A DNA stretch of 41,728 nt, taken from contig JAISTC010000154.1 of NCBI GenBank assembly GCA_031272805.1, positions 1 through 41,728 on the forward strand. Direction: 5' to 3'. The number at the start of each line of letters is the position of its first letter. The first letter of the stretch is position 1. Of this stretch, positions 2,858 through 29,179 are shown piece after piece. Below the pieces are notes generated by a model. It saw only the letters and a list, made by a program, of their open reading frames with translations. It had not been told where the DNA came from and searched no databases. The position numbers and the translations under genes are program-made. The stretch comes from Propionibacteriaceae bacterium (GTDB lineage Bacteria; Actinomycetota; Actinomycetes; Propionibacteriales; Propionibacteriaceae).

Positions 2858-3526
2858 TCAGTCCTCGTCGTCGGGCTCTTGCGCCAACGTGGCGTAGATC
2901 TTCCGCTTGAGGGCGGCGATGTCGTCGGAAATGGTCTTGAGCTGCTCGGGGGTGGCGTCCGTCGCCATGACCCGGAGGGCCTTGGCGAGCGACTTCAGCT
3001 CCTCGAACAGGCCGCGAATCTCGACGACCGGCCACTCGCCGGCGCGGAACTCCGGCTGCTCGGAGCCCCAGGGCTCCTTGGGGGCGTCCTCGGCGGCCTT
3101 CTCGCCCGCCTCGGTCAGCTTGAAGACCTTCTGGCCTTCGACCTCGGTCGGCTCGATCAGGCCCTCATCGGTCAACTGCTGGAGGCAGGGGTAGACGGCG
3201 CCGGGGCTCGGCGACCAGAGGCCGAGGGTGCGCTCGTTGAGCGTCGTGATGATCTGGTAGCCGTTGCGCGGCTGTTCCTTCAGCAACACGAGGATCGACT
3301 CGCGGAGCAGGCCGCGGCGGGCGCGCTGGCGGCCGCCGGGGTGGCCGGGGCCGAAGCCCCAGGGGTTGAACTGGGTGAAATCGGGGACGGGGGGCGGCCC
3401 GGGGAAGGCGCCCCGGCGGCCTCGGCCGCCGCGGCCCATCTCATCGGGGGGGCCGGGGAAAGTAAACTCGCAGCGAGCGCGGCGATGGCCACGGTGCCGG
3501 GAATCGAAACGGTCAGATGCAGACAT
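2858..3526 (-). CDS. PadR-family transcriptional regulator
   Basis: This is a 222-residue DNA-binding regulator. An unusual N-terminal segment of about 68 residues is rich in Gly, Pro and Arg. It is followed by a PadR winged helix: RGLLRESILVLLKEQPRNGY, then LWSPSPGAVYPCLQQLTDEG, then EGQKVFKLTEAGE. The C-terminal helices (residues about 150-215) are amphipathic and would form the dimerisation region. The ATG has a strong AAAGGAG Shine-Dalgarno. The gene converges with the upstream RyR-domain gene, with 16 bp between the stop codons. PadR proteins of this type often repress an adjacent transporter or their own gene. No transporter is adjacent here, and a nested inverted repeat sits directly upstream, so autoregulation is the simplest reading. 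The effector is unknown. Confidence 0.9.
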   Translation of the reverse strand: MSASDRFDSRHRGHRRARCEFTFPGPPDEMGRGGRGRRGAFPGPPPVPDFTQFNPWGFGPGHPGGRQRARRGLLRESILVLLKEQPRNGYQIITTLNERTLGLWSPSPGAVYPCLQQLTDEGLIEPTEVEGQKVFKLTEAGEKAAEDAPKEPWGSEQPEFRAGEWPVVEIRGLFEELKSLAKALRVMATDATPEQLKTISDDIAALKRKIYATLAQEPDDED

Positions 3527-9034: not shown

Positions 9035-10150
9035 CTACGCCAGGGCTTCTGCCGTGGGGAGCAGCGGCAGGTTGAACGCCTCGGCTACTCCTGGGTACGT
9101 CACCTGGCCGGCGTACGTGTTCAGGCCCTTGGCCAGGGAGCCGTTGTCGCGCAGGGCTTGGCGCCAGCCCTTGGCGGCCAACTGGAGCGTGAACGGCAGG
9201 GTGGCGTTCGTCAGGGCCCAGGTCGACGTGTGGGGGACCGCGCCCGGCATGTTGGCCACGCAGTAGAAGATGGAATTGTGGACCGGGAAGACCGGGTCGT
9301 CGTGGGTCGTCGGGTGGGAGTCCTCGAAGCAGCCGCCCTGGTCGATGGCCACGTCGACCAGGACCGAGCCCGGCCGCATCGTGGCGACCATGTCGTTCGT
9401 GACCAGCTTCGGCGTCTTGGCGCCGGGCACGAGGACGGTCCCGATGACGAGGTCGGCATCCGCCACGCGCTCCGCCACGGCCAGCCGGCTCGACGCGATC
9501 TGGCGGACCCGGTTGTCGAAGCGCCAGAAGCTCATGCGCAGTTTGTCGAGGTCCGTGTCGAGCATCGTCACGTCCGCGCCCATGCCGAGCGCGATGTTGG
9601 CGGCGTTCTGGCCGACGGTCCCGGCCCCGAGGATGACGACCTTGGCGTTGTCGACGCCGCCGATGCCGCCCAGGAGGACGCCGCGGCCGCCGCCCCCGCG
9701 CATCAGCGCGTGGGCGCCGACCTGCGGCGCCAGGCAGCCCGCGACCTCGGACATCGGGTACAGCAGGGGCAGCAGGCCGGAGGGGAGCTGGACGGTCTCG
9801 TAGGCGATCCCGGTCGTCCGGGCGGCCAGCAGGGCGTCGAGGCCGGGCCGGTCGGCGGCCAGGTGGAGGTATGTGAACAGGACGAGGTCGTCGCGGAGGA
9901 ACGGGAACTCCTCCTCGATGGGCTCCTTGACCTTGACGACGAGGTCGCCGGCCGCCCACGTGTCGGCGGCCGTCGGCACGATGGTCGCCCCCTGGGCGAC
10001 ATAGTCGGAGTCGGCGATGGCGGAGCCCTCGCCGGCGCCGGCCTGGATGAAGACCTCGTGGCCGCGGTGGACGAGCTCGGCGACGCCGACAGGGGTGATG
10101 GCGACCCGGTACTCGCGGTTTTTCACTTCGGTGGGAATGGCGATGCGCAT
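9035..10150 (-). CDS. ald: Alanine dehydrogenase
   Basis: The enzyme reversibly converts L-alanine plus NAD+ to pyruvate, ammonium and NADH in the cytoplasm. The protein has 371 residues, the family norm. The N terminus is [20 protein letters not shown]. Substrate-site residues appear in VVKVKEP (Lys) and [10 protein letters not shown] (His). The Rossmann motif [14 protein letters not shown] lies near residue 170. ATG 10148-10150 is chosen because AGGAGGT precedes it; the ORF-track start at 10201 is upstream of that site. The fold is shared with the transhydrogenase alpha subunit, but the C-terminal region ([15 protein letters not shown]) fits alanine dehydrogenase. Pyruvate links it to the PFOR at the other end of the window, and it could assimilate or release ammonium. 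It is monocistronic. Confidence 0.95.
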
Positions 10151-20929: not shown

Positions 20930-21388
20930 CTACCCGGCCAACTTCTGGCACAACTGCCGCAGGGTCTCCTGCTCCGCCAAACTGAGCTGGCCCGTGACCG
21001 CCGCCGCCACGTGCGTGCCGTGCGCCAGCCCCAACCGCCGTTGAGCGGCCTGCCCGGCGTCCGTCAACGTCACGAGGACCGAGCGCCCGTCCGCCGGGTT
21101 GCGCTGTTTTTCGACCAGGCCGCGGGCGGCCAGCCGGTCGACCAGCCGCGACAGGCCCGGCTGCGACAGCAGCACGGCCTGCTCGAGTGAGCCGACCGGG
21201 ACCGGCCCGCCCGCCTTGGCCAACGTGTAGAGCACGTCGTAGTCGCGCAACGTCACGTCGCCCCATTCGGGCGCCGCCGCGAACTGGCGCAACAGGCGCG
21301 TGTGGGCGGTCAACAGGGCCTCCCACGCCGCGTTGGCCAAGGCCAGGCCGGAGCCCTCAGAACCGCGGGTAGCTGATGGGCGTGACAT
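20930..21388 (-). CDS. MarR-family transcriptional regulator
   Basis: This is a 152-residue winged-helix regulator. The DNA-binding part is VTLRDYDVLYTLAKAGGPVP, then QAVLLSQPGLSRLVDRLAAR and EKQRNPADGRSVLVTLTDAG. The flanking helices form the dimer. ATG 21386-21388 overlaps the end of the flavin oxidoreductase gene by 32 bp but has GAGGA at good spacing, so the overlap is probably real and the two genes form one operon. MarR proteins of this kind usually sense phenolic or oxidising compounds. A near-palindromic candidate operator lies upstream of the operon at 22563. Repression of its own operon is the likely role. Confidence 0.9.
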   Translation of the reverse strand: MSRPSATRGSEGSGLALANAAWEALLTAHTRLLRQFAAAPEWGDVTLRDYDVLYTLAKAGGPVPVGSLEQAVLLSQPGLSRLVDRLAARGLVEKQRNPADGRSVLVTLTDAGQAAQRRLGLAHGTHVAAAVTGQLSLAEQETLRQLCQKLAG

Positions 21389-22544
21389 CGTCGGAATCCT
21401 CGTACGGGCTCGTCCCCGTCACGTTGTCGCCGCGGTTGGCGCGCGGGCGCGGCTGGCGCGGCGCGGCGTCGCCGTACTTCGCCCGGACCAGCGCCGCGTG
21501 GGTCGGCCCCGCCGGCACGTCCGCCCCGCGCCCGGCCGCCAGCTCCTGACGCAACACGGGCACGACCTCGCCGCCCAGCAATTCGAGCTGGTCGAGGACG
21601 GTCCCGAGCGGCAGCCCGCCGTGGTCGGCCAGGAACAGGAGGCGTTGGAAGTCGCCGAAGTGCTCGCGGAAGGTCAGGGTCTTGTCGATGACCTCCTGGA
21701 CCGAGCCGACGACCAGCGGCGTCGTGGCCTCGACCTCCTCCAGGGACGGGCCGCCGCCGTAGACCGGGGCGGCGTCGAAGTAGGGCCGGAACTCCTGCTT
21801 GGCCTGCTGCGACGTCTGACCGATGTACGCCTGGGCGCCCACGCCGACGATCGCCTGGCGGGCGCTGCCGTGGCCGTGGAACTCGAAGCGCTCGCGGTAG
21901 AACTCGACCAGGCGGATGAAGTGGTCCTTCGGCCAGAAGATGTTGTTGGCGAAGAAGCCGTCGCCGTAGAAGGCCGCCTGCTCGGCGATCTCGGGCGTCC
22001 GGATCGAGCCGTGCCAGACGAACGGCGGCACGTCGTCCAGCGGTCGCGGGATCGACGTGAAACCCTGGAGCGGCGTCCGGAACTCGCCGGACCAATCGAC
22101 CACGTCGTGACGCCACAACCCGTGCAGCAGCGCGTAGTTCTCCAGCGCCAGCGCCAGCGACTGGCGGATGTCCTGGCCGAACCAGGGGTAGACCGGGGCC
22201 GTGTTGCCGCGGCCGAGCATCAGGTCGACGCGGCCGTCGGCCAGGTGCTGGAGGAGTGCGTACTCCTCGGCGATCCGGACCGGGTCGTTGGTCGTGATGA
22301 GCGTCGTGGCGGTCGACAGGAGGATCCGGTCGGTCCGGGCGGCGATGGCCGCCAGCAGCGTCGTGGGCGAGGACGAGAAGAAGGGCGGGTTGTGGTGCTC
22401 GCCGATGGCGAACACGTCCAGCCCGACCTCCTCCGCCTTCTCCGCGATGGCGACGGCGGCCTGGATCCGCTCGTGCTCGCTCGGCGTCACGCCGGAAACC
22501 GGGTCACGCGTGACGTCGCTGACCGAAAAGATGCCAATCTGCAT
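21357..22544 (-). CDS. LLM-class (luciferase-like) flavin-dependent oxidoreductase
   Basis: This is a 395-residue TIM-barrel monooxygenase of the bacterial luciferase superfamily, which uses reduced FMN or F420. MQIGIFSVSDVTRDP opens the barrel. DVFAIGEHHNPPFFSSSP (about residues 43-60), RILLSTATTLITTNDPVRIA, LMLGRGNTAPVYPWFGQD and PPFVWHGSIRTPEIAEQAAF are the superfamily patterns. The last 50 residues (RQPRPRANRGDNVTGTSP) look disordered. ATG 22542-22544 follows GAGGGAG; the ORF-track start at 22586 lies in the promoter. The first gene of a two-gene operon with marR. The neighbouring thiol-related genes hint at oxidation of an S-containing or aromatic substrate, but nothing in the sequence fixes it. 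Cofactor preference cannot be read. Confidence 0.88.
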   Translation of the reverse strand: MQIGIFSVSDVTRDPVSGVTPSEHERIQAAVAIAEKAEEVGLDVFAIGEHHNPPFFSSSPTTLLAAIAARTDRILLSTATTLITTNDPVRIAEEYALLQHLADGRVDLMLGRGNTAPVYPWFGQDIRQSLALALENYALLHGLWRHDVVDWSGEFRTPLQGFTSIPRPLDDVPPFVWHGSIRTPEIAEQAAFYGDGFFANNIFWPKDHFIRLVEFYRERFEFHGHGSARQAIVGVGAQAYIGQTSQQAKQEFRPYFDAAPVYGGGPSLEEVEATTPLVVGSVQEVIDKTLTFREHFGDFQRLLFLADHGGLPLGTVLDQLELLGGEVVPVLRQELAAGRGADVPAGPTHAALVRAKYGDAAPRQPRPRANRGDNVTGTSPYEDSDDVTPISYPRF

Positions 22545-22562
22545 GAAGTGCTCCCTCGTAGA

Positions 22563-22582
22563 TATATGCGGATGCATGTATA
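22563..22582. promoter_or_regulatory. AT-rich imperfect palindrome, candidate MarR operator
   Basis: TATATGC-GGAT-GCATGTATA is an interrupted palindrome in an otherwise GC-rich region, about 18 bp upstream of the oxidoreductase ATG. Read leftward it contains TATACAT, a plausible -10 element. Its size and position fit a MarR dimer site that blocks the promoter of the oxidoreductase-marR operon. Confidence 0.4.
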
Positions 22583-22600
22583 CCACGGAGCGCGGCGTTT

Positions 22601-22623: not shown

Positions 22624-23694
22624 TCAGCGCTGGGTCGGCGCGGTCCAGTCGACCGCGAAGCCGATCGGCACGAGGCGCCGCGGGTTCAGGTGGGGGTGGG
22701 TGATGAAGTAGTGGCGCTTGATGTGGTCGAACTTCGTCGTCGTGCGGAACGCCGGCTGCTGGTAGAGGAAGCGGGCGTAGTCCCACAGGTTGGAGTAGTC
22801 GACCAGGCGCCGGAGGTTGGCCTTGAAGTGCGTCACGTACACGGCGTCGAAGCGCGCCAGCGTCACCCAGAGCCGGATGTCCGCCTCCGTCAGCCGGTCG
22901 CCGAACAGGTAGGTCCGGTCCGCCAGCCGCCGCTCCAGGTCGTCCAGGGTCTCGAACAGTGCCGTCACCGCCCGGTCGTAGGCCGCCTGAGTCAGCGCCC
23001 CGCCGGCCTGGTACACCCCGTTGTTGACCGTCCGGTAGACCCGGTCGTTGAGCGCGTCGATCGCCTCCCGCAGGTCGGCCGGGTAGAGGTCGACCTCCGG
23101 GTGGGCCGCCCACTCGTTGAACTCGGCGCCCAGGTCGAGGGAGATGTCGGGGAAGTTGTTCGACACGATCTGGCCGGTCACGCTGTCCCACAGGACCGGC
23201 ACGGAGACGTGGCCCGGGAACCCGGGGACGGTCTGTTCGTACGCCTCGCGCAACAGCGTGAAGTGGTTGTACGGGTCGCCCGTCAGGTCCGGGCCCGGCC
23301 GGAACGCCCAGCCGCGCGCGTCGCGGATCGGGTCGACGACCGCCACCCCGACCACATCCTGCAGCCCCTTCAACTCGCGCACGATCAACTGCCGCTGCGC
23401 CCACGGGCAGGCGTAGGAGACGTACAGGACGTAGCGGTCGGGGGCGGCCGGGAAGTCCCCCGTCACGAGCGCCCCCGTCACGTTGTCCGGCGCCGGCCGG
23501 CGGTCGGCCGGGGGTTCTGGGGCCCCGGCTTTGACCCGGCCCTGGAGCGGGTAGGGCGGGCGGACGACGTCGCCGCCGGGCGTGTGGCTGAACAGGCCCT
23601 TGGCCGGGGTGGCGGGGTCGCCGTAGGCGGCGTAGACGTCGAAGTCGACGGGCGAGGCCCAGGGCGGCGGGCCGGGTAGGGTGCGGACGGGCAT
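22624..23694 (-). CDS. Glutathionyl-hydroquinone reductase-like protein (Xi-class GST)
   Basis: This is a 356-residue Xi-class glutathione transferase. These enzymes reduce glutathionyl-hydroquinones (YqjG/Ecm4 type). The thioredoxin domain has the active site YVSYACPWAQRQLIVRELKG with the catalytic Cys in CPWA (about residue 98). VPVLWDSVTGQIVSNNFPDI binds the thiol. The helical domain has LNDRVYRTVNNGVYQAG, then RTYLFGDRLTEADIRLWVTL and the terminal FDHIKRHYFITHPHLNPRRL. ATG 23692-23694 follows GGAAAGGA, placed directly after tRNA-Cys. The ORF-track start at 23775 reads through the tRNA and is wrong. Actinobacteria usually use mycothiol rather than glutathione, so the true thiol partner is uncertain. 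A paralogue lies at 28127. Confidence 0.92.
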   Translation of the reverse strand: MPVRTLPGPPPWASPVDFDVYAAYGDPATPAKGLFSHTPGGDVVRPPYPLQGRVKAGAPEPPADRRPAPDNVTGALVTGDFPAAPDRYVLYVSYACPWAQRQLIVRELKGLQDVVGVAVVDPIRDARGWAFRPGPDLTGDPYNHFTLLREAYEQTVPGFPGHVSVPVLWDSVTGQIVSNNFPDISLDLGAEFNEWAAHPEVDLYPADLREAIDALNDRVYRTVNNGVYQAGGALTQAAYDRAVTALFETLDDLERRLADRTYLFGDRLTEADIRLWVTLARFDAVYVTHFKANLRRLVDYSNLWDYARFLYQQPAFRTTTKFDHIKRHYFITHPHLNPRRLVPIGFAVDWTAPTQR

Positions 23695-23711
23695 GACGGG
23701 TTCCTTTCCGA

Positions 23712-23781
23712 GGCGGAGACCGGAATCGAACCGACCTAAACGGATTTGCAGTCCGCTGCCTAACCACTCGGCCACTCCGCC
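23712..23781 (-). tRNA. tRNA-Cys (anticodon GCA)
   Basis: The reverse complement folds as a cloverleaf. The acceptor arms GGCGGAG and CTCCGCC pair perfectly. The D arm is GCCGAGTGGTTAGGC and the anticodon loop is CTGCAAA with GCA at 23747-23749 (complement). The T arm is GTCGGTTCGATTCCGGT. The CCA end is not encoded. The 3' end is only 17 bp from the ATG of the leftward Xi-GST gene, and the intervening bases include that gene's Shine-Dalgarno, so the two are almost certainly cotranscribed and separated by RNase processing. Confidence 0.96.
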
Positions 23782-23989
23782 CGGCGGCCGGCCCGGTCCC
23801 GAGCCCGGGCCAGTCGCGTATACGGGCGTATACGAACGTGGACGTTAGCACTGGGACACGGCCCTGGCAAGTCCATTCCAGACTCGCCCCGGGCCGCGCG
23901 TATACGCTTGCATACAGACGGATACGTGTGCTAGCTTCCCTGCCACCGTGGCGCCACCCGCCACTCAGGGAACTCGACAAGGGAACACC
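23782..23989. promoter_or_regulatory. Divergent promoter region with repeated GTATACG motifs
   Basis: This 208-bp gap separates leftward tRNA-Cys from the rightward ABC importer. It has four related AT-containing motifs: GCGTATACGGGCGTATACG (23816-23834) on the tRNA side, and GCGTATACG then GGATACG on the importer side. CGTATACG is itself palindromic. They could be -10 elements for the two directions or sites for a shared regulator. There is no gene inside. A GC-rich inverted repeat (CCCGGGC-type) flanks the tRNA. Confidence 0.5.
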
Positions 23990-24886
23990 ATGAAGAAATA
24001 TCCATTGCCACTGGCCGGATTGCTCCTCGCCTTCTCGGGGCTGCTGGCCGGCTGCGCCGGGGAGACCCAGGCCTCGGACCCCGTGACCGGTGCGGCCGCG
24101 GACGGCGGCAACAGCGTGACGGCCGACTCCGCGGCCGGCGTCCAGCAGGTCCTGGTCGGCACGTCCGGCGCCCCCAAGCCCTACATCTACTTCGACGACG
24201 ACAACAACCTGACCGGCTACGACCACGACGTCGTCGTCGCCATCGACGCCTACCTGCCGGACTACGAGTTCACGTACGAGGTGACGGAGTTCGCCAGCAT
24301 CTTCGGCGGCCTCGACGCGGGCCGCTACCAGATGGGCGACAACAACTTCACGCGCAAGCCGGAGCGCGAGGAGAAGTACCTGTTCGGCTCGGAGCCCTAC
24401 GTCTACAACTGGACGGTCGTGGTCGTGGCGGCCGGCAATCCGGACCACATCCAGACCCTGGCCGACCTCGGCGGCAAGAAGGTCTACACCGATGATTCCG
24501 GCGGCTTCGCCCAGATCTTCTTCGACAGCTACAACGCCGCCCACCCGGACAACCCGATTGAGACCATCTACTCCGGGGCCGACGGCGCCAAGCAGCTCCT
24601 CGACCTCTCCCAAGGCGTGGTCGACTTCTCCCTGCTGGAAATCCCGATGTTCGACAACTACGTGGCGACGTATTCGGAGCTCAAGGACAAGATCGACTAC
24701 GTCCAGTTGAGCCAGGAGGAGACCCAGCAGATCCAGGACCCCTACGGCTGGTTCATCTTCCCCAAGACCGACGCCGGCCAGAAGCTGGCCGACCGGGTGG
24801 ACGAGGCGATCCGGGCGCTCGACGCCGACGGCACGCTCGTGGCCCTGTCGGACAAGTACTTCGGCTTCGACATGACCGGGCGCTGA
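23990..24886 (+). CDS. Amino acid (cystine-type) ABC transporter substrate-binding lipoprotein
   Basis: This is a 298-residue exported binding protein. The signal peptide MKKYPLPLAGLLLAFSGLLA ends in the lipobox LLAGC (lipidated Cys near residue 22), anchoring it outside the membrane. The binding domain follows the polar-amino-acid/cystine family: GTSGAPKPYIYFDDDNNLTG, then YDHDVVVAIDAYLPDYEF, FGGLDAGRYQMGDNNFTR and DPYGWFIFPKTDAG. The final VALSDKYFGFDMT is typical. ATG 23990 is chosen because it begins the signal peptide and follows AAGGGAA. It is the first gene of the importer operon (SBP, permease, ATPase). Cystine or S-substituted cysteine as ligand is inferred from family and context only. 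Confidence 0.93.
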   Translation: MKKYPLPLAGLLLAFSGLLAGCAGETQASDPVTGAAADGGNSVTADSAAGVQQVLVGTSGAPKPYIYFDDDNNLTGYDHDVVVAIDAYLPDYEFTYEVTEFASIFGGLDAGRYQMGDNNFTRKPEREEKYLFGSEPYVYNWTVVVVAAGNPDHIQTLADLGGKKVYTDDSGGFAQIFFDSYNAAHPDNPIETIYSGADGAKQLLDLSQGVVDFSLLEIPMFDNYVATYSELKDKIDYVQLSQEETQQIQDPYGWFIFPKTDAGQKLADRVDEAIRALDADGTLVALSDKYFGFDMTGR

Positions 24887-24912: not shown

Positions 24913-25692
24913 ATGCTATTCGATTTCGGGCTGGTATTCCGCCAGATCCCCAAGATCCTGAAGTACCTGCCGGTGACGCTGGAGATCGCCGTCGCGGCGA
25001 TGGCCTTCAGCCTCATCCTCGGTTTCCTCGTCGCGCTCATCAAGATCAAGCGGGTCCGCGTCCTGACCCCCCTGGCCGGCTTCTACGTCTCGTTCACGCG
25101 CGGCACGCCGATCCTGGTCCAGCTCTACGCCACCTACTACGGCATCCCGTTCTTCCTCCAGTTCTGCAACGCCAAGCTGGGGACGGACTGGAACGTCAAC
25201 GGCGTGCCGCCGATCGTGTTCGCCCTGGTGGCGCTGGCGCTGAACGACGCGGCCTACTCCTCCGAGGCCATCCGCGCGGCGATCGTGGCGGTCGACCGGG
25301 GTCAGGTCGAGGCGGCCCACTCGATCGGGATGACGACGTGGCAAACCCTCCGCCGCGTCGTCATCCCGGAGGCCCTCGTGATCGCGCTGCCGAGCCTCGG
25401 CAACGCGTTCATCGGCATGATCAAGGGGACCAGCCTCGTCTTCGTCTGCGCCGTCGTCGACATGACGGCCGCCGGCCGGATGCTGGCGGCCCGCAACTTC
25501 CGCTACTTCGAGATGTACGTCTCGCTGGCCATCATCTACTGGGTCATCACGCTCGTCGTGGCGCGCCTGCTGGTCGTGTGGGAGCGGCGGCTGCGGCGGG
25601 ACGCGCGCGGCGTCAAGGGCCTCGCCCCGACGGAAGGAGGCACGCGCGATGAACTCGATGATTCGACTGCGCGGCTTACGCAAAAGGTTTGA
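24913..25692 (+). CDS. Amino acid ABC transporter permease
   Basis: This is a 259-residue inner-membrane permease with about five membrane helices, for example YLPVTLEIAVAAMAFSLILG and YVSLAIIYWVITLVVARLLV. The cytoplasmic loop YSSEAIRAAIVAVDRGQVEA, followed by AHSIGMTTWQTLRRVVIPEA, is the EAA motif that contacts the ATPase (about residues 117-156). The HisM/TcyL type is clear. AGGAGG precedes the ATG. The end overlaps the ATPase gene by 44 bp, and the charged tail (TEGGTRDELDDSTARLTQKV) is encoded in that overlap. Confidence 0.94.
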   Translation: MLFDFGLVFRQIPKILKYLPVTLEIAVAAMAFSLILGFLVALIKIKRVRVLTPLAGFYVSFTRGTPILVQLYATYYGIPFFLQFCNAKLGTDWNVNGVPPIVFALVALALNDAAYSSEAIRAAIVAVDRGQVEAAHSIGMTTWQTLRRVVIPEALVIALPSLGNAFIGMIKGTSLVFVCAVVDMTAAGRMLAARNFRYFEMYVSLAIIYWVITLVVARLLVVWERRLRRDARGVKGLAPTEGGTRDELDDSTARLTQKV

Positions 25693-26410
25693 CCACATCG
25701 AGGTCCTGAAGGGCATCGACCTGGACGTGGCCGAGGGCGAGGTCCTCGGCGTCATCGGGGCGAGCGGCTCCGGCAAGTCGACGCTGCTGCGCTGCCTCGA
25801 CTTCCTGGAGGTCCCCGACGCCGGGGAGATCACGCTCGACGGCCGGGCCGTCGACGCGGCCCACGCCACGAAGGCCGACGTCCGCTACCTCCGCCGCCAC
25901 ACGGCCATGGTCTTCCAGCTCTTCCACCTGTTCACGTACAAGACGGCCCTGGAGAACGTCATGGAGGGCCTCGTGACCGTCCAGAAACTGGACAAGGTCA
26001 CGGCCGAGGCGGTCTCGCGCGACCTGCTCGACCGCGTCGGGCTGGGCGACCGCGTCGACCACTTCCCCAGCCAGTTGAGCGGCGGCCAGCAGCAGCGCGT
26101 CGCCATCGCCCGGTCCCTCGCCCTCAACCCCAAGGTGATGCTCCTCGACGAGCCGACCTCCGCCCTCGACCCGGAGTCGATCGCGGGCGTGCTAGCGGTC
26201 ATCCGGGACGTCGCGGCGGAGGGCCGGACGATGGTCATCGTCTCCCACGAGATGAACTTCATCTCCGACATCGCCGACCAGGTCGTGTTCCTCAACGACG
26301 GCGAGATCCTCGAGCGGGGCACCCCGGCCCAGGTCCTCGGCGCCCCCGCCACCGAGCGCGCCCGCCAGTTCCTGGCCCGCGCCAACCTGACCTTGAGCCG
26401 CGCCGCCTGA
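25649..26410 (+). CDS. Amino acid ABC transporter ATP-binding protein
   Basis: This is a 253-residue ATPase of the GlnQ/TcyN type. Walker A is GASGSGKSTLLRCLDFLE (about residues 37-54), the Q-loop is in TAMVFQLFHLFTYKTALENV, the signature is QLSGGQQQRVAIARSLAL, and Walker B is VMLLDEPTSALDPE. The switch His is in MVIVSHEMNF. There are two possible ATGs (25649 and 25658). GGAGG favours the first. It overlaps the permease by 44 bp and is followed 23 bp later by the GNAT-GST fusion gene with its own strong Shine-Dalgarno, so the operon continues. Confidence 0.95.
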   Translation: MNSMIRLRGLRKRFDHIEVLKGIDLDVAEGEVLGVIGASGSGKSTLLRCLDFLEVPDAGEITLDGRAVDAAHATKADVRYLRRHTAMVFQLFHLFTYKTALENVMEGLVTVQKLDKVTAEAVSRDLLDRVGLGDRVDHFPSQLSGGQQQRVAIARSLALNPKVMLLDEPTSALDPESIAGVLAVIRDVAAEGRTMVIVSHEMNFISDIADQVVFLNDGEILERGTPAQVLGAPATERARQFLARANLTLSRAA

Positions 26411-26433: not shown

Positions 26434-28095
26434 ATGACCACCCTCGTCACGCCGGCCGCCGGCCCCGCCGTCGGCCCGGCGCCCCTGCCCGGCTCGGCCG
26501 GCGACACGTCGCCCGCCTGGCTGCGGCGCCGCGACCTGGGCGGGGGAGTGCAGCTCCGCCAGGCCTGGCCGGAGGAGTATCCGGAGGCCGAGGACCTGCT
26601 GGTGGCGGCCTTCACCACCGGCTGCTGGGTGTCGCCCGGCTACGAGGCCGGGCTGCGCACCCTGGCCGAGCGGTCCGTCCGCCACCACGTCTGGGTGGCC
26701 GCCGAGACGCTGCCGCGCGACGACCGGCTCCTGGCCGTCGTCCTGACGCCCCGGGCCGAACACCTGGGGGACGGGCCCTTCACGTTCTCGATCCTGGCCG
26801 TCCACCCCGCCGCCCGCGGCCGCCGCCTCGGCGAGGCCCTCGTCCGCCACGCCCTGGACCTGGCCCGCGCCCACGGCCACGCCACGGTCGAAATCCACTC
26901 GAGCCCCCAGATGAGCGAGGCCCACCGGCTCTACTACCGGCTCGGCTTCCGCCGCCGGATCGACGACGAGATCGTCATCGTGTCCGAATTCGCCGAGCGG
27001 CTGCTGACGCTGACCTACCGGCTGCCCGACCCGCTGCCGCCGGGCCAGGCGGTCGCCGTCGCGGCGGCGCCGCCCGGGGCCGTCCCGCCGGCCGCCGACC
27101 CGTTCGACCGGACACCGCCGGACCGGACGGCGTGGCCCGACCCGCCCGCCGGCCGGATCGACGCCGCCGGGGCGTTCAGCGTGACCGGCCGCCGCCACGA
27201 CGCGGTGGCCCGCCGCGCCGCCCAACTGGGCCACGGGCTGGGCGGGCGACCCGGCCACCCGGCGGGGCTGGTGGCGCAGATCACGGCCGACCTCTGGGAC
27301 GGCGCGTACGCCGTCCTCTGGTCGCCCGACGCGGCGGCCCGGCGGGCGGCCGCGCGCGTGTTCTTCGCCCGCCTCGACCGGCTCGACGCCCGCCTGGCGC
27401 AGGGCGGGCCGTTCCTCCACGGCGCGGAGCCGCGGGCCGACGACGTGCTCCTGGCGGCCGTCTTGCTGACCTACGACGCCGGCTGGCGGGCGGGTTTCCC
27501 GCCCGCGGCCGGGGCGGTCGCCCACTTCCCGCACCTGTGGGACTCGGCCCGCCGCCTGGTGGCCCGGGCCGGGGCGGCCGTGGTCGTGCCGGACGACTTC
27601 GGGCGTGGTCCCTGGGGTGCCCTCCCGCCGATCCCGGGGCTGGACGACCCGGGGGCCGCCTGGCTGGACCCGGCCCACGCCGGATTGCCCGCCCGCGCGC
27701 GGTCGGGCGACGCCCGGCCGACGCCCTACTCGGGCGACTGGCCGGCCTCGTCCCGGGCCGACCGGGACACGCTCTGGCGGGTCGTCACGCGGCTGGCCGC
27801 CGGGCCCGACGGCGGGCTGGGGCGGCGGCTCCGCGAGGACCTGGGCGAGGGAGCGTGGCGCCTGGCCCAGGGCGCGCCCGCGCTCACCCAGACGGCGCTG
27901 CGCCGGACCTTCTGGGCCCGGCTGGCCTGGCTCGACCACCGCGTCACGCCGCTGGGCCCGGCCGCGCGCGGCCACGTCGTCCGCACGCTCGTGACCGGCT
28001 TCCCGGCCCTGCGCCGCGTCTTCCCGCCGATCGACCCCGACCTGGCCGACTTCCCACATCTGGCCGCCCTCGCGGCGGACCTGGACCCCGCGTGA
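26434..28095 (+). CDS. GNAT acetyltransferase fused to two degenerate GST helical domains
   Basis: This is a 553-residue multidomain protein. Residues about 40-195 are a GNAT fold: LRQAWPEEYPEAEDLLVAAF, then SILAVHPAARGRRLGEALVR (acetyl-CoA loop) and EAHRLYYRLGFRRR. A Pro/Ala-rich linker follows. Residues about 270-380 resemble the helical domain of the neighbouring Xi-GSTs: ADLWDGAYAVLW, then VFFARLDRLDARLAQGGPFL and HGAEPRADDVLLAAVLLTYD. Residues about 445-550 look like a second, more worn copy: RRLREDLGEGAWRLAQGAPA, then FWARLAWLDHRVTPLG. Neither copy has a thioredoxin domain or catalytic Cys. The ATG follows AAGGAG. The GNAT assignment is firm; the GST-domain repeats are my alignment by eye. 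Acetylation of a cysteine-type amine delivered by the importer is a working guess. Confidence 0.68.
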   Translation: MTTLVTPAAGPAVGPAPLPGSAGDTSPAWLRRRDLGGGVQLRQAWPEEYPEAEDLLVAAFTTGCWVSPGYEAGLRTLAERSVRHHVWVAAETLPRDDRLLAVVLTPRAEHLGDGPFTFSILAVHPAARGRRLGEALVRHALDLARAHGHATVEIHSSPQMSEAHRLYYRLGFRRRIDDEIVIVSEFAERLLTLTYRLPDPLPPGQAVAVAAAPPGAVPPAADPFDRTPPDRTAWPDPPAGRIDAAGAFSVTGRRHDAVARRAAQLGHGLGGRPGHPAGLVAQITADLWDGAYAVLWSPDAAARRAAARVFFARLDRLDARLAQGGPFLHGAEPRADDVLLAAVLLTYDAGWRAGFPPAAGAVAHFPHLWDSARRLVARAGAAVVVPDDFGRGPWGALPPIPGLDDPGAAWLDPAHAGLPARARSGDARPTPYSGDWPASSRADRDTLWRVVTRLAAGPDGGLGRRLREDLGEGAWRLAQGAPALTQTALRRTFWARLAWLDHRVTPLGPAARGHVVRTLVTGFPALRRVFPPIDPDLADFPHLAALAADLDPA

Positions 28096-28126: not shown

Positions 28127-29179
28127 ATGACCCTCAGCCCCACCCTGGAGACCACCCTCCCCGAGTTGACGGCCGAACAGACCCCCGACGGCGCGTTCCG
28201 CCGCCAGCGCAACTGGTTCTCCGGCCGCTTCGGCCCGGCGCCGGGCCAGTTCCCGGTCGAACCGGGCCGCTACGCCGTCTTCGGCTCCCTCGGCTGCGGC
28301 TGGGCCCGCCGCCAGCGCATCATCCTCCGGCTCCTCGGCCTGGAGCAGGCCGTCCGGTTCGTCCAATTGTCCGACCGCGACGAGGACGGCTGGCTGATCG
28401 CGCCGGACGGCGCCGACCTCGTGGCCCGCTTCGGGACGCGCCGGCTCAACGACTTCTACCGGGGGACCGACCCCAACTACCAGGGCCGGGGGACGTCGCC
28501 GACCGTGGTCGACCTGGAGACCGGCCGCGTCGTGTCGAACAACTACCACCTCCTGCCCCAGGACTGGGAGACCGCCTGGGCGCCCTACCACCGGGACGGC
28601 GCCCCGGACCTCTACCCGGAACACCTGCGCCGCGAGATCGACCTGCTCAACCAGCAGTTGTTCGACGACGTCAACAACGGGACGTACAAGGTCCTGTTCG
28701 CGACCAACCCGGCGGCCGCCCGCGTCGCCCACACGGTCTTCGCCGCCCGCCTGGCCGACCTCGAGTTCCGGCTGACGAGCCGCCGCTACCTGTTCGGCGA
28801 CGCCGTCACGGACTCCGACGTCCGGCTGTTCCAGACCCTGTCGAGCTACGAGCGGGCGTACCGGCCCGGGCTGGCCGCCGTCCTCGGGGAGGGCGTGGTC
28901 CACGTCACGGACTACCCGGCGCTCTGGGGCTACGCGCGCGACCTGTTCGCCCAGGGCTTCGCCGACCCGTTGGAGCAATACTTCCTCGGGCTCCTGCCCG
29001 GCCCCGACGGCGGGTACCTGGCGGGCAAGGGCTTCGCCCCGCCCGGCTACCTCCTGCCGCCGCCGGCCGAGGCGCTGGCGGCGTGGCGCCAGCCGAGCGG
29101 CCGGGAGGCGCTGACCGGGTCGCCGTACTACTCCGGCCCCGGTGGCGGCGGCTCGGCCGAGCGCTGGACGTTCGCCTGA
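28127..29179 (+). CDS. Xi-class GST paralogue with CGWA active site
   Basis: This is a 350-residue protein homologous along its length to the reductase at 22624. The active-site segment reads FGSLGCGWARRQRIILRLLG, so the CPWA motif is CGWA: the Cys is kept and the Pro is lost. SPTVVDLETGRVVSNNYHLL and DLLNQQLFDDVNNGTYKVLF are conserved, as is RRYLFGDAVTDSDVRLFQTL. The usual C-terminal FDHIKRHY segment is absent and replaced by a Pro/Gly-rich tail (GKGFAPPGYLLPPPAEALAA). AAAGGA precedes the ATG, and the gene starts 31 bp after the GNAT-GST fusion. It is probably the last gene of the importer operon. The changed site suggests altered chemistry or substrate (inference). Confidence 0.85.
   Translation: MTLSPTLETTLPELTAEQTPDGAFRRQRNWFSGRFGPAPGQFPVEPGRYAVFGSLGCGWARRQRIILRLLGLEQAVRFVQLSDRDEDGWLIAPDGADLVARFGTRRLNDFYRGTDPNYQGRGTSPTVVDLETGRVVSNNYHLLPQDWETAWAPYHRDGAPDLYPEHLRREIDLLNQQLFDDVNNGTYKVLFATNPAAARVAHTVFAARLADLEFRLTSRRYLFGDAVTDSDVRLFQTLSSYERAYRPGLAAVLGEGVVHVTDYPALWGYARDLFAQGFADPLEQYFLGLLPGPDGGYLAGKGFAPPGYLLPPPAEALAAWRQPSGREALTGSPYYSGPGGGGSAERWTFA

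Follow-up and report, generated by a model that had tools for sequence, protein, structure and literature searches.

The window (the whole stretch of DNA that was analysed, 41,728 nucleotides of a Propionibacteriaceae genome) contains an open reading frame that spans exactly positions 26434-28095 of the forward strand, starts with ATG, has no internal stop codon and encodes an acetyltransferase joined to two domains derived from glutathione transferases (GSTs) of the Xi class. The genes and features considered at this locus are the following:

21357-22586, reverse strand: luciferase-like FMN monooxygenase, CE1758 family TIGR04036 (E 3e-193)
22624-23694, reverse strand: Xi-GST1 with the canonical C-P-W-A motif (Pfam, alignment)
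23948-24886, forward strand: solute-binding protein of an amino-acid (cystine-type) ABC importer (Pfam, NCBIfam)
24913-25692, forward strand: permease, nearest profile a cystine ABC permease (profile search)
25649-26410, forward strand: ATPase, nearest profiles TcyN/GlnQ (profile search)
26434-28095, forward strand: whole fusion gene, GNAT and two GST_C-like helical domains, 553 amino acids (open reading frame)
26539-27042, forward strand: GNAT acetyltransferase domain, about residues 36-203 (Pfam Acetyltransf_1 1.1e-9, alignments)
27043-27258, forward strand: Ala/Pro/Gly-rich linker, residues 204-275 (alignment, composition)
27259-27579, forward strand: first GST_C-like helical domain, residues 276-382 (hhalign 99.0%, PDB 4pts 3e-21)
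27580-27798, forward strand: connector, residues 383-455 (alignments)
27799-28092, forward strand: second GST_C-like helical domain, residues 456-553 (hhalign 98.2% and 98.5%, PDB 4fqu 2.7e-7, tree)
28127-29179, forward strand: Xi-GST2, a complete two-domain Xi-type GST with C-G-W-A instead of C-P-W-A (Pfam, alignment)

The importer ATPase stops 23 bp before the fusion gene and Xi-GST2 starts 31 bp downstream of it, and because of these gaps the segment 23948-29179 reads as one five-gene run consisting of the importer trio, the fusion and Xi-GST2. The likely start of Xi-GST1 is at 23694; a longer open reading frame to 23775 runs into a tRNA-Cys (GCA) gene that lies directly upstream (23710-23781, reverse strand). 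An Rfam search of the window revealed no riboswitch and only a tRNA. Between Xi-GST1 and the importer operon (23817-23927) there are two to three CGTATACGnnCGTATACG-like palindromes, one of them exact, which represent a candidate operator; three copies were reached in none of 100 shuffles. GTATACG is also present at positions 3115 and 3516 of L035, near the divergent start of the fusion gene in that locus. GST2-type Xi-GSTs with C-G-W instead of C-P-W-A occur in several genomes and make up a subclass whose active site is altered. The reverse strand of the fusion gene is also open; nothing supports it as a gene, and it was dismissed as a shadow frame of high-GC DNA.

The fusion gene lies within one contig of its host genome. 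That genome is a draft assembly of 239 contigs, which would be the argument for an assembly or frameshift artefact that joins separate genes, but the architecture recurs in frame in independent genomes, for the form with a pseudo-Xi-GST including finished single-contig ones, and a chimera or frameshift was therefore rejected as exceedingly improbable.

The first-pass annotation had described an N-terminal GNAT domain followed by two segments that resemble the helical half of the neighbouring Xi-GSTs, with no thioredoxin half, and each of these elements was recovered. The GNAT domain of the window protein (P0001) is intact, with a match to Pfam Acetyltransf_1 over residues 82-175 (E 1.1e-9, 39 bits vs a cut-off of 20.7). 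Alignments place the acetyl-CoA loop at R128-G-R-R-L-G133 and a conserved tyrosine pair at Y167-Y168. The loop is a slightly degenerate form of acetyl-CoA motif A (R/Q-x-x-G-x-G/A), since the relatives L033 and L037-L041 carry R-G-L-G-L-G or a close variant. No NCBIfam equivalog was matched above its cut-off by the GNAT domain. The mycothiol synthase MshD, a GNAT acting on a cysteine amine, gave a weak local match to the fusion (20 bits) that is far below the family cut-off, and the real MshD is encoded elsewhere in the host genome.

No Pfam domain was found after residue 203 of the window protein. Pfam GST_C_2 is matched in six of the seven family members tested and is absent from the window protein, where the match is lost by divergence; Pfam and NCBIfam alone, with no GST domain in the window protein, would wrongly have led to a rejection of GST homology. 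In profile–profile comparisons (hhalign), with tandem members only as the query and Xi-GST C-terminal halves gathered from the host and related genomes, residues 230-428 matched the Xi-GST C-terminal halves with a probability of 99.0 and a score of 118 (maximum of 21 in 100 column shuffles) and residues 429-553 with a probability of 98.2 and a score of 93 (at most 16 after shuffling). Aligned with each other, the segments reach 98.5%, and for both of them the comparison with the Xi-GST thioredoxin half gave no match (about 0.1%). Profile searches of the PDB, with pseudo-Xi-GST relatives included beside the tandem members for the first domain, returned Xi-GSTs first for both domains (E 3e-21 and, rounded, 3e-7). 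The top matches of the first domain are all Xi-class (4pts 3e-21 and 3m1g 4.5e-19, then 4fqu, 6gzf and YqjG) and those of the second domain are 4fqu (2.7e-7), 3m1g (6.4e-5) and 4pts (1.3e-4).

Structure prediction, proposed in the first-pass annotation as a check, agreed in part. AlphaFold predicts only helices for residues 230-553, arranged in two groups of four to five, at low confidence (pLDDT 63.6; 53.6 for the full-length protein), and the input of only four usable sequences makes the model too weak to judge domain packing, Xi-type dimer or not. Foldseek matches to the model were mostly GSTs (probability up to 0.91; 0.69 for the E. coli Xi-GST YqjG) and none had an E-value below 1e-3, so that the conclusion on homology rests on sequence profiles. 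At that level, the homology of both C-terminal helical domains to the C-terminal half of Xi-class GSTs is well supported.

The window protein itself is not a Xi-GST, because no match to the N-terminal half was found and its sole cysteine (C64) lies in the GNAT domain. It carries no thioredoxin half with C-P-W-A, contains the Xi-type helical C-terminal domain twice and keeps, by alignment, at most one of the three positions of the Xi tyrosine triad (Y224/Y301/Y346). The candidate is the tyrosine of WDGAYAV (residues 288-294) in the first helical domain, which aligns with the alpha-4 position of the triad; the pseudo-GST relatives have a glutamate at this position. The second helical domain is a further diverged duplicate of the first. 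The connector between them contains the motifs AAWLDP and PTPYSGD, which resemble the C-terminal tail of Xi-GST2 in alignments, and the linker (residues 204-275) aligns with the site of a thioredoxin remnant in relatives.

A search for the architecture in other genomes revealed 12 fusions in total, the one in the window included. In 11 of 198 Propionibacteriaceae genomes, again counting the window's own, a GNAT is joined in frame to Xi-GST-derived sequence, and the twelfth fusion (L033) is on a contig of a Bifidobacteriaceae MAG. Within an order-wide sample the fusion is confined to the Propionibacteriaceae and other families contain GNAT homologues that stand alone; no further fusion was found at E 1e-45 in a class-wide sample of 395 genomes. 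Seven fusions consist of a GNAT and one pseudo-Xi-GST (G003, G028, G062, G183, G064, G096 and G164) in which the thioredoxin region has become shorter and no longer contains the catalytic cysteine. One of these proteins (L039) can be aligned with a real Xi-GST from the start of the thioredoxin half onward, with YRLVTAPDALRGRAALIARRLAG paired with YRLALSPGCGWGRRQLIALRLLG of the Xi-GST and ALRG in place of CGWG. The thioredoxin remnant scores 25.4 against Xi-GST N-terminal halves (hhalign, shuffle maximum 15.2) with a probability of only 30%, and the match is centred mainly on an SPxLxDxxGxxVSDDW element. The other five fusions (window, G187/L031, G116/L032, G109 and L033) have two helical halves and no remnant. 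As the first-pass annotation had supposed, a GNAT joined to two GST-like helical halves appears to be an unusual architecture, and no description of it was found in the literature, within an incomplete coverage of journals.

In a tree of the GNAT domains all 12 fusions form one clade (100/99), within which the tandem form is a clade (99/98), and the nearest outgroup genomes (G068 and G034) have separate GNAT genes directly upstream of a Xi-GST gene. In a tree of the helical domains the second copies form one clade (100/99), indicating a single duplication. Judged from sequence comparison, the analysis shows that the C-terminus of the fusion descends from a Xi-class GST that was captured once in the Propionibacteriaceae. 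The sister lineage with its separate GNAT directly upstream of a Xi-GST makes it the most economical history that a GNAT and an adjacent Xi-GST copy fused and the thioredoxin half then decayed, and one branch likely went on to lose this half and to duplicate the helical one. The branch order within the fusion clade is in conflict between the two trees, and a strict stepwise order of thioredoxin loss is therefore not claimed. The single-domain relatives with their dead thioredoxin remnant suggest that an entire Xi-GST, rather than a dedicated scaffold, was the starting point of the module. The family holds intermediates between an enzyme and a structural module: separate genes, a fusion to a whole pseudo-GST that lacks the cysteine, and loss of the thioredoxin half with duplication of the helical half. 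The dN/dS of the helical domain is 0.21, 0.23 and 0.38 in pseudo-GST pairs and, between the window protein and L032, 0.43 for the first and 0.61 for the second helical domain, which indicates that purifying selection acts on the helical domains as it does on the GNAT and is weakest on the second of them.

The architecture and the origin of the fusion are well supported, and its function we infer as follows. The preferred reading, which is tentative and falls a little short of an even chance, is that the GNAT is a working enzyme and the Xi-derived helical domains are a self-assembly module within a cluster of the S-substituted-cysteine type. The GNAT would N-acetylate a small amine. An S-substituted cysteine or a similar compound derived from a thiol is the most likely acceptor; it would be brought in by the co-transcribed amino-acid importer and acetylated before the adjacent flavin monooxygenase and Xi-GSTs attack it. 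No GST chemistry would be carried out by the helical domains. With one pseudo-GST, the acetyltransferase would be paired between chains, tandem copies would form a Xi-type pair within one chain, and a hydrophobic groove that is kept may additionally accommodate the side chain of the substrate. Self-assembly is favoured because Xi-GSTs have their own mode of dimerisation through this same helical C-terminal domain (PMC5063366). A possible model for the pathway is the yxe locus of Bacillus subtilis with its importer, GNAT and monooxygenase, whose products take up S-(2-succino)cysteine, N-acetylate it and then oxidise it (PMC9706529). An importer, a GNAT and an LLM monooxygenase were all found at the window locus; no deacetylase was identified, in particular no N-acetylcysteine deacetylase beside the fusion gene. 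The importer type differs between the window locus and the loci of relatives, which encode a Dpp-type peptide importer, an M19 dipeptidase, an amidohydrolase and a CysK-like gene, and the inference on the substrate is accordingly loose.

The roles proposed for the helical domains would rank with self-assembly first, recruitment of Xi-GSTs second and substrate binding third. Recruitment, in which the helical domains heterodimerise with Xi-GST1 or Xi-GST2 and bring thiol-transferase and acetyltransferase into one complex, is possible although on balance unlikely. It would use the dimerisation surface of the Xi-GSTs, which is the helical half (PMC5063366), it fits the gene order of the fusion followed after 31 bp by Xi-GST2, and aminoacyl-tRNA synthetase complexes are known to assemble with the help of GST-like domains (PMC3930741). 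A Xi-GST is also present in all fusion genomes but one. That exception (G064, about 100% complete) has an intact fusion, which is its sole Xi-GST-like match, so the fusion does not require a GST partner in every case. At its locus (L041, about 9700-10130) a shortened second Dpp-type ATPase continues in frame into the GNAT-pseudo-GST, and both Xi-GSTs are missing, which looks like a single deletion that removed the GST genes and reduces the counter-example to a modest argument. Recruitment has also to account for the lack of a Xi-GST near the fusion in L031 and for the helical domains having diverged far from both Xi-GST paralogues in the tree.

It is doubtful that the helical domains are instead a substrate-binding module with no role in assembly, in which the hydrophobic pocket of the GST presents an S-substituent to the GNAT active site. 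The tyrosine kept by alignment at the alpha-4 triad position would fit such a role, but the window protein retains by alignment none of the remaining triad positions, the pseudo-GST relatives have the glutamate at alpha-4, the G-site belonged to the lost thioredoxin half and binding does not require a duplicated domain. That the GST part is a functionless passenger of a neutral read-through fusion and is being lost is more improbable still: the fusion is kept in frame in 12 genomes, the helical-domain dN/dS (0.21-0.43) is close to the GNAT value and the second copy was conserved after the duplication in five genomes. Such decay would explain the graded loss of the thioredoxin half, the weaker constraint on the second helical domain (dN/dS 0.61), the truncation of GNAT genes of the fusion clade in G017 and G078 and the repeat insertions within the L032 domains.

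A further reading that we regard as rather unlikely is that a dead Xi-GST, made into a purely structural and then duplicated dimerisation or docking domain, brings the acetylation of S-conjugates together with the mycothiol-dependent Xi-GSTs within a single complex. If true, it would be a bacterial assembly for thiol-conjugate processing built from a dead GST. The Xi-GST of Corynebacterium glutamicum is a mycothiol-dependent enzyme (PMC6815410) and the host genome has both MshC and MshD above the cut-off. Among the fusion carriers, G003 has neither MshC nor MshD over the cut-off and G064 has no MshD over it, which weakens a mycothiol-specific function, and because of G003 the fusion is not tied to mycothiol. 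These two genomes (genus g4) differ in MshC/MshD from the other complete genomes of the family that were tested.

The closest known systems each share a part of this arrangement. The C-terminal half of the Xi-GSTs, including the mycothiol S-transferase MstX of C. glutamicum (3m1g), YqjG (4g0l), 4pts and 4fqu, is homologous to both helical domains; unlike these enzymes, the fusion has no thioredoxin half or catalytic cysteine motif and carries the helical half doubled behind a GNAT, with two real Xi-GSTs flanking its gene. The yxe system (acetyltransferase YxeL, monooxygenase YxeK, importer YxeMNO and deacetylase YxeP) has the importer, GNAT and flavin monooxygenase in common with the window locus, whereas the window has GST-derived domains on the GNAT, a TIGR04036 monooxygenase and Xi-GSTs. 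Aminoacyl-tRNA synthetase complexes and eEF1B-gamma use non-catalytic GST-fold domains in assembly, as proposed here, and domains of EPRS and EF1-gamma were weak matches in the PDB list of the first domain. These domains belong to other GST classes and are mostly eukaryotic, in contrast to the Xi helical half on a GNAT in the window. By the logic of gene fusion, Xi-GSTs become linked to an acetyltransferase and an amino-acid importer. Little is known of the natural substrates of actinobacterial Xi-GSTs, and this link is a lead on thiol-conjugate salvage or detoxification.

Further alterations were observed among the relatives. L032 (5899-8256) contains low-complexity repeat insertions, of the SGQQ type inside the GNAT and of the LSDGAL type between the helical domains. 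An extra GST2-like copy in G028 (L038, 8000-8988) is apparently split across two frames and is likely a pseudogene. In L046 (7028-7918) a Xi-GST paralogue has its catalytic cysteine motif replaced (DLAQAPARR) and represents an independent pseudo-Xi-GST.
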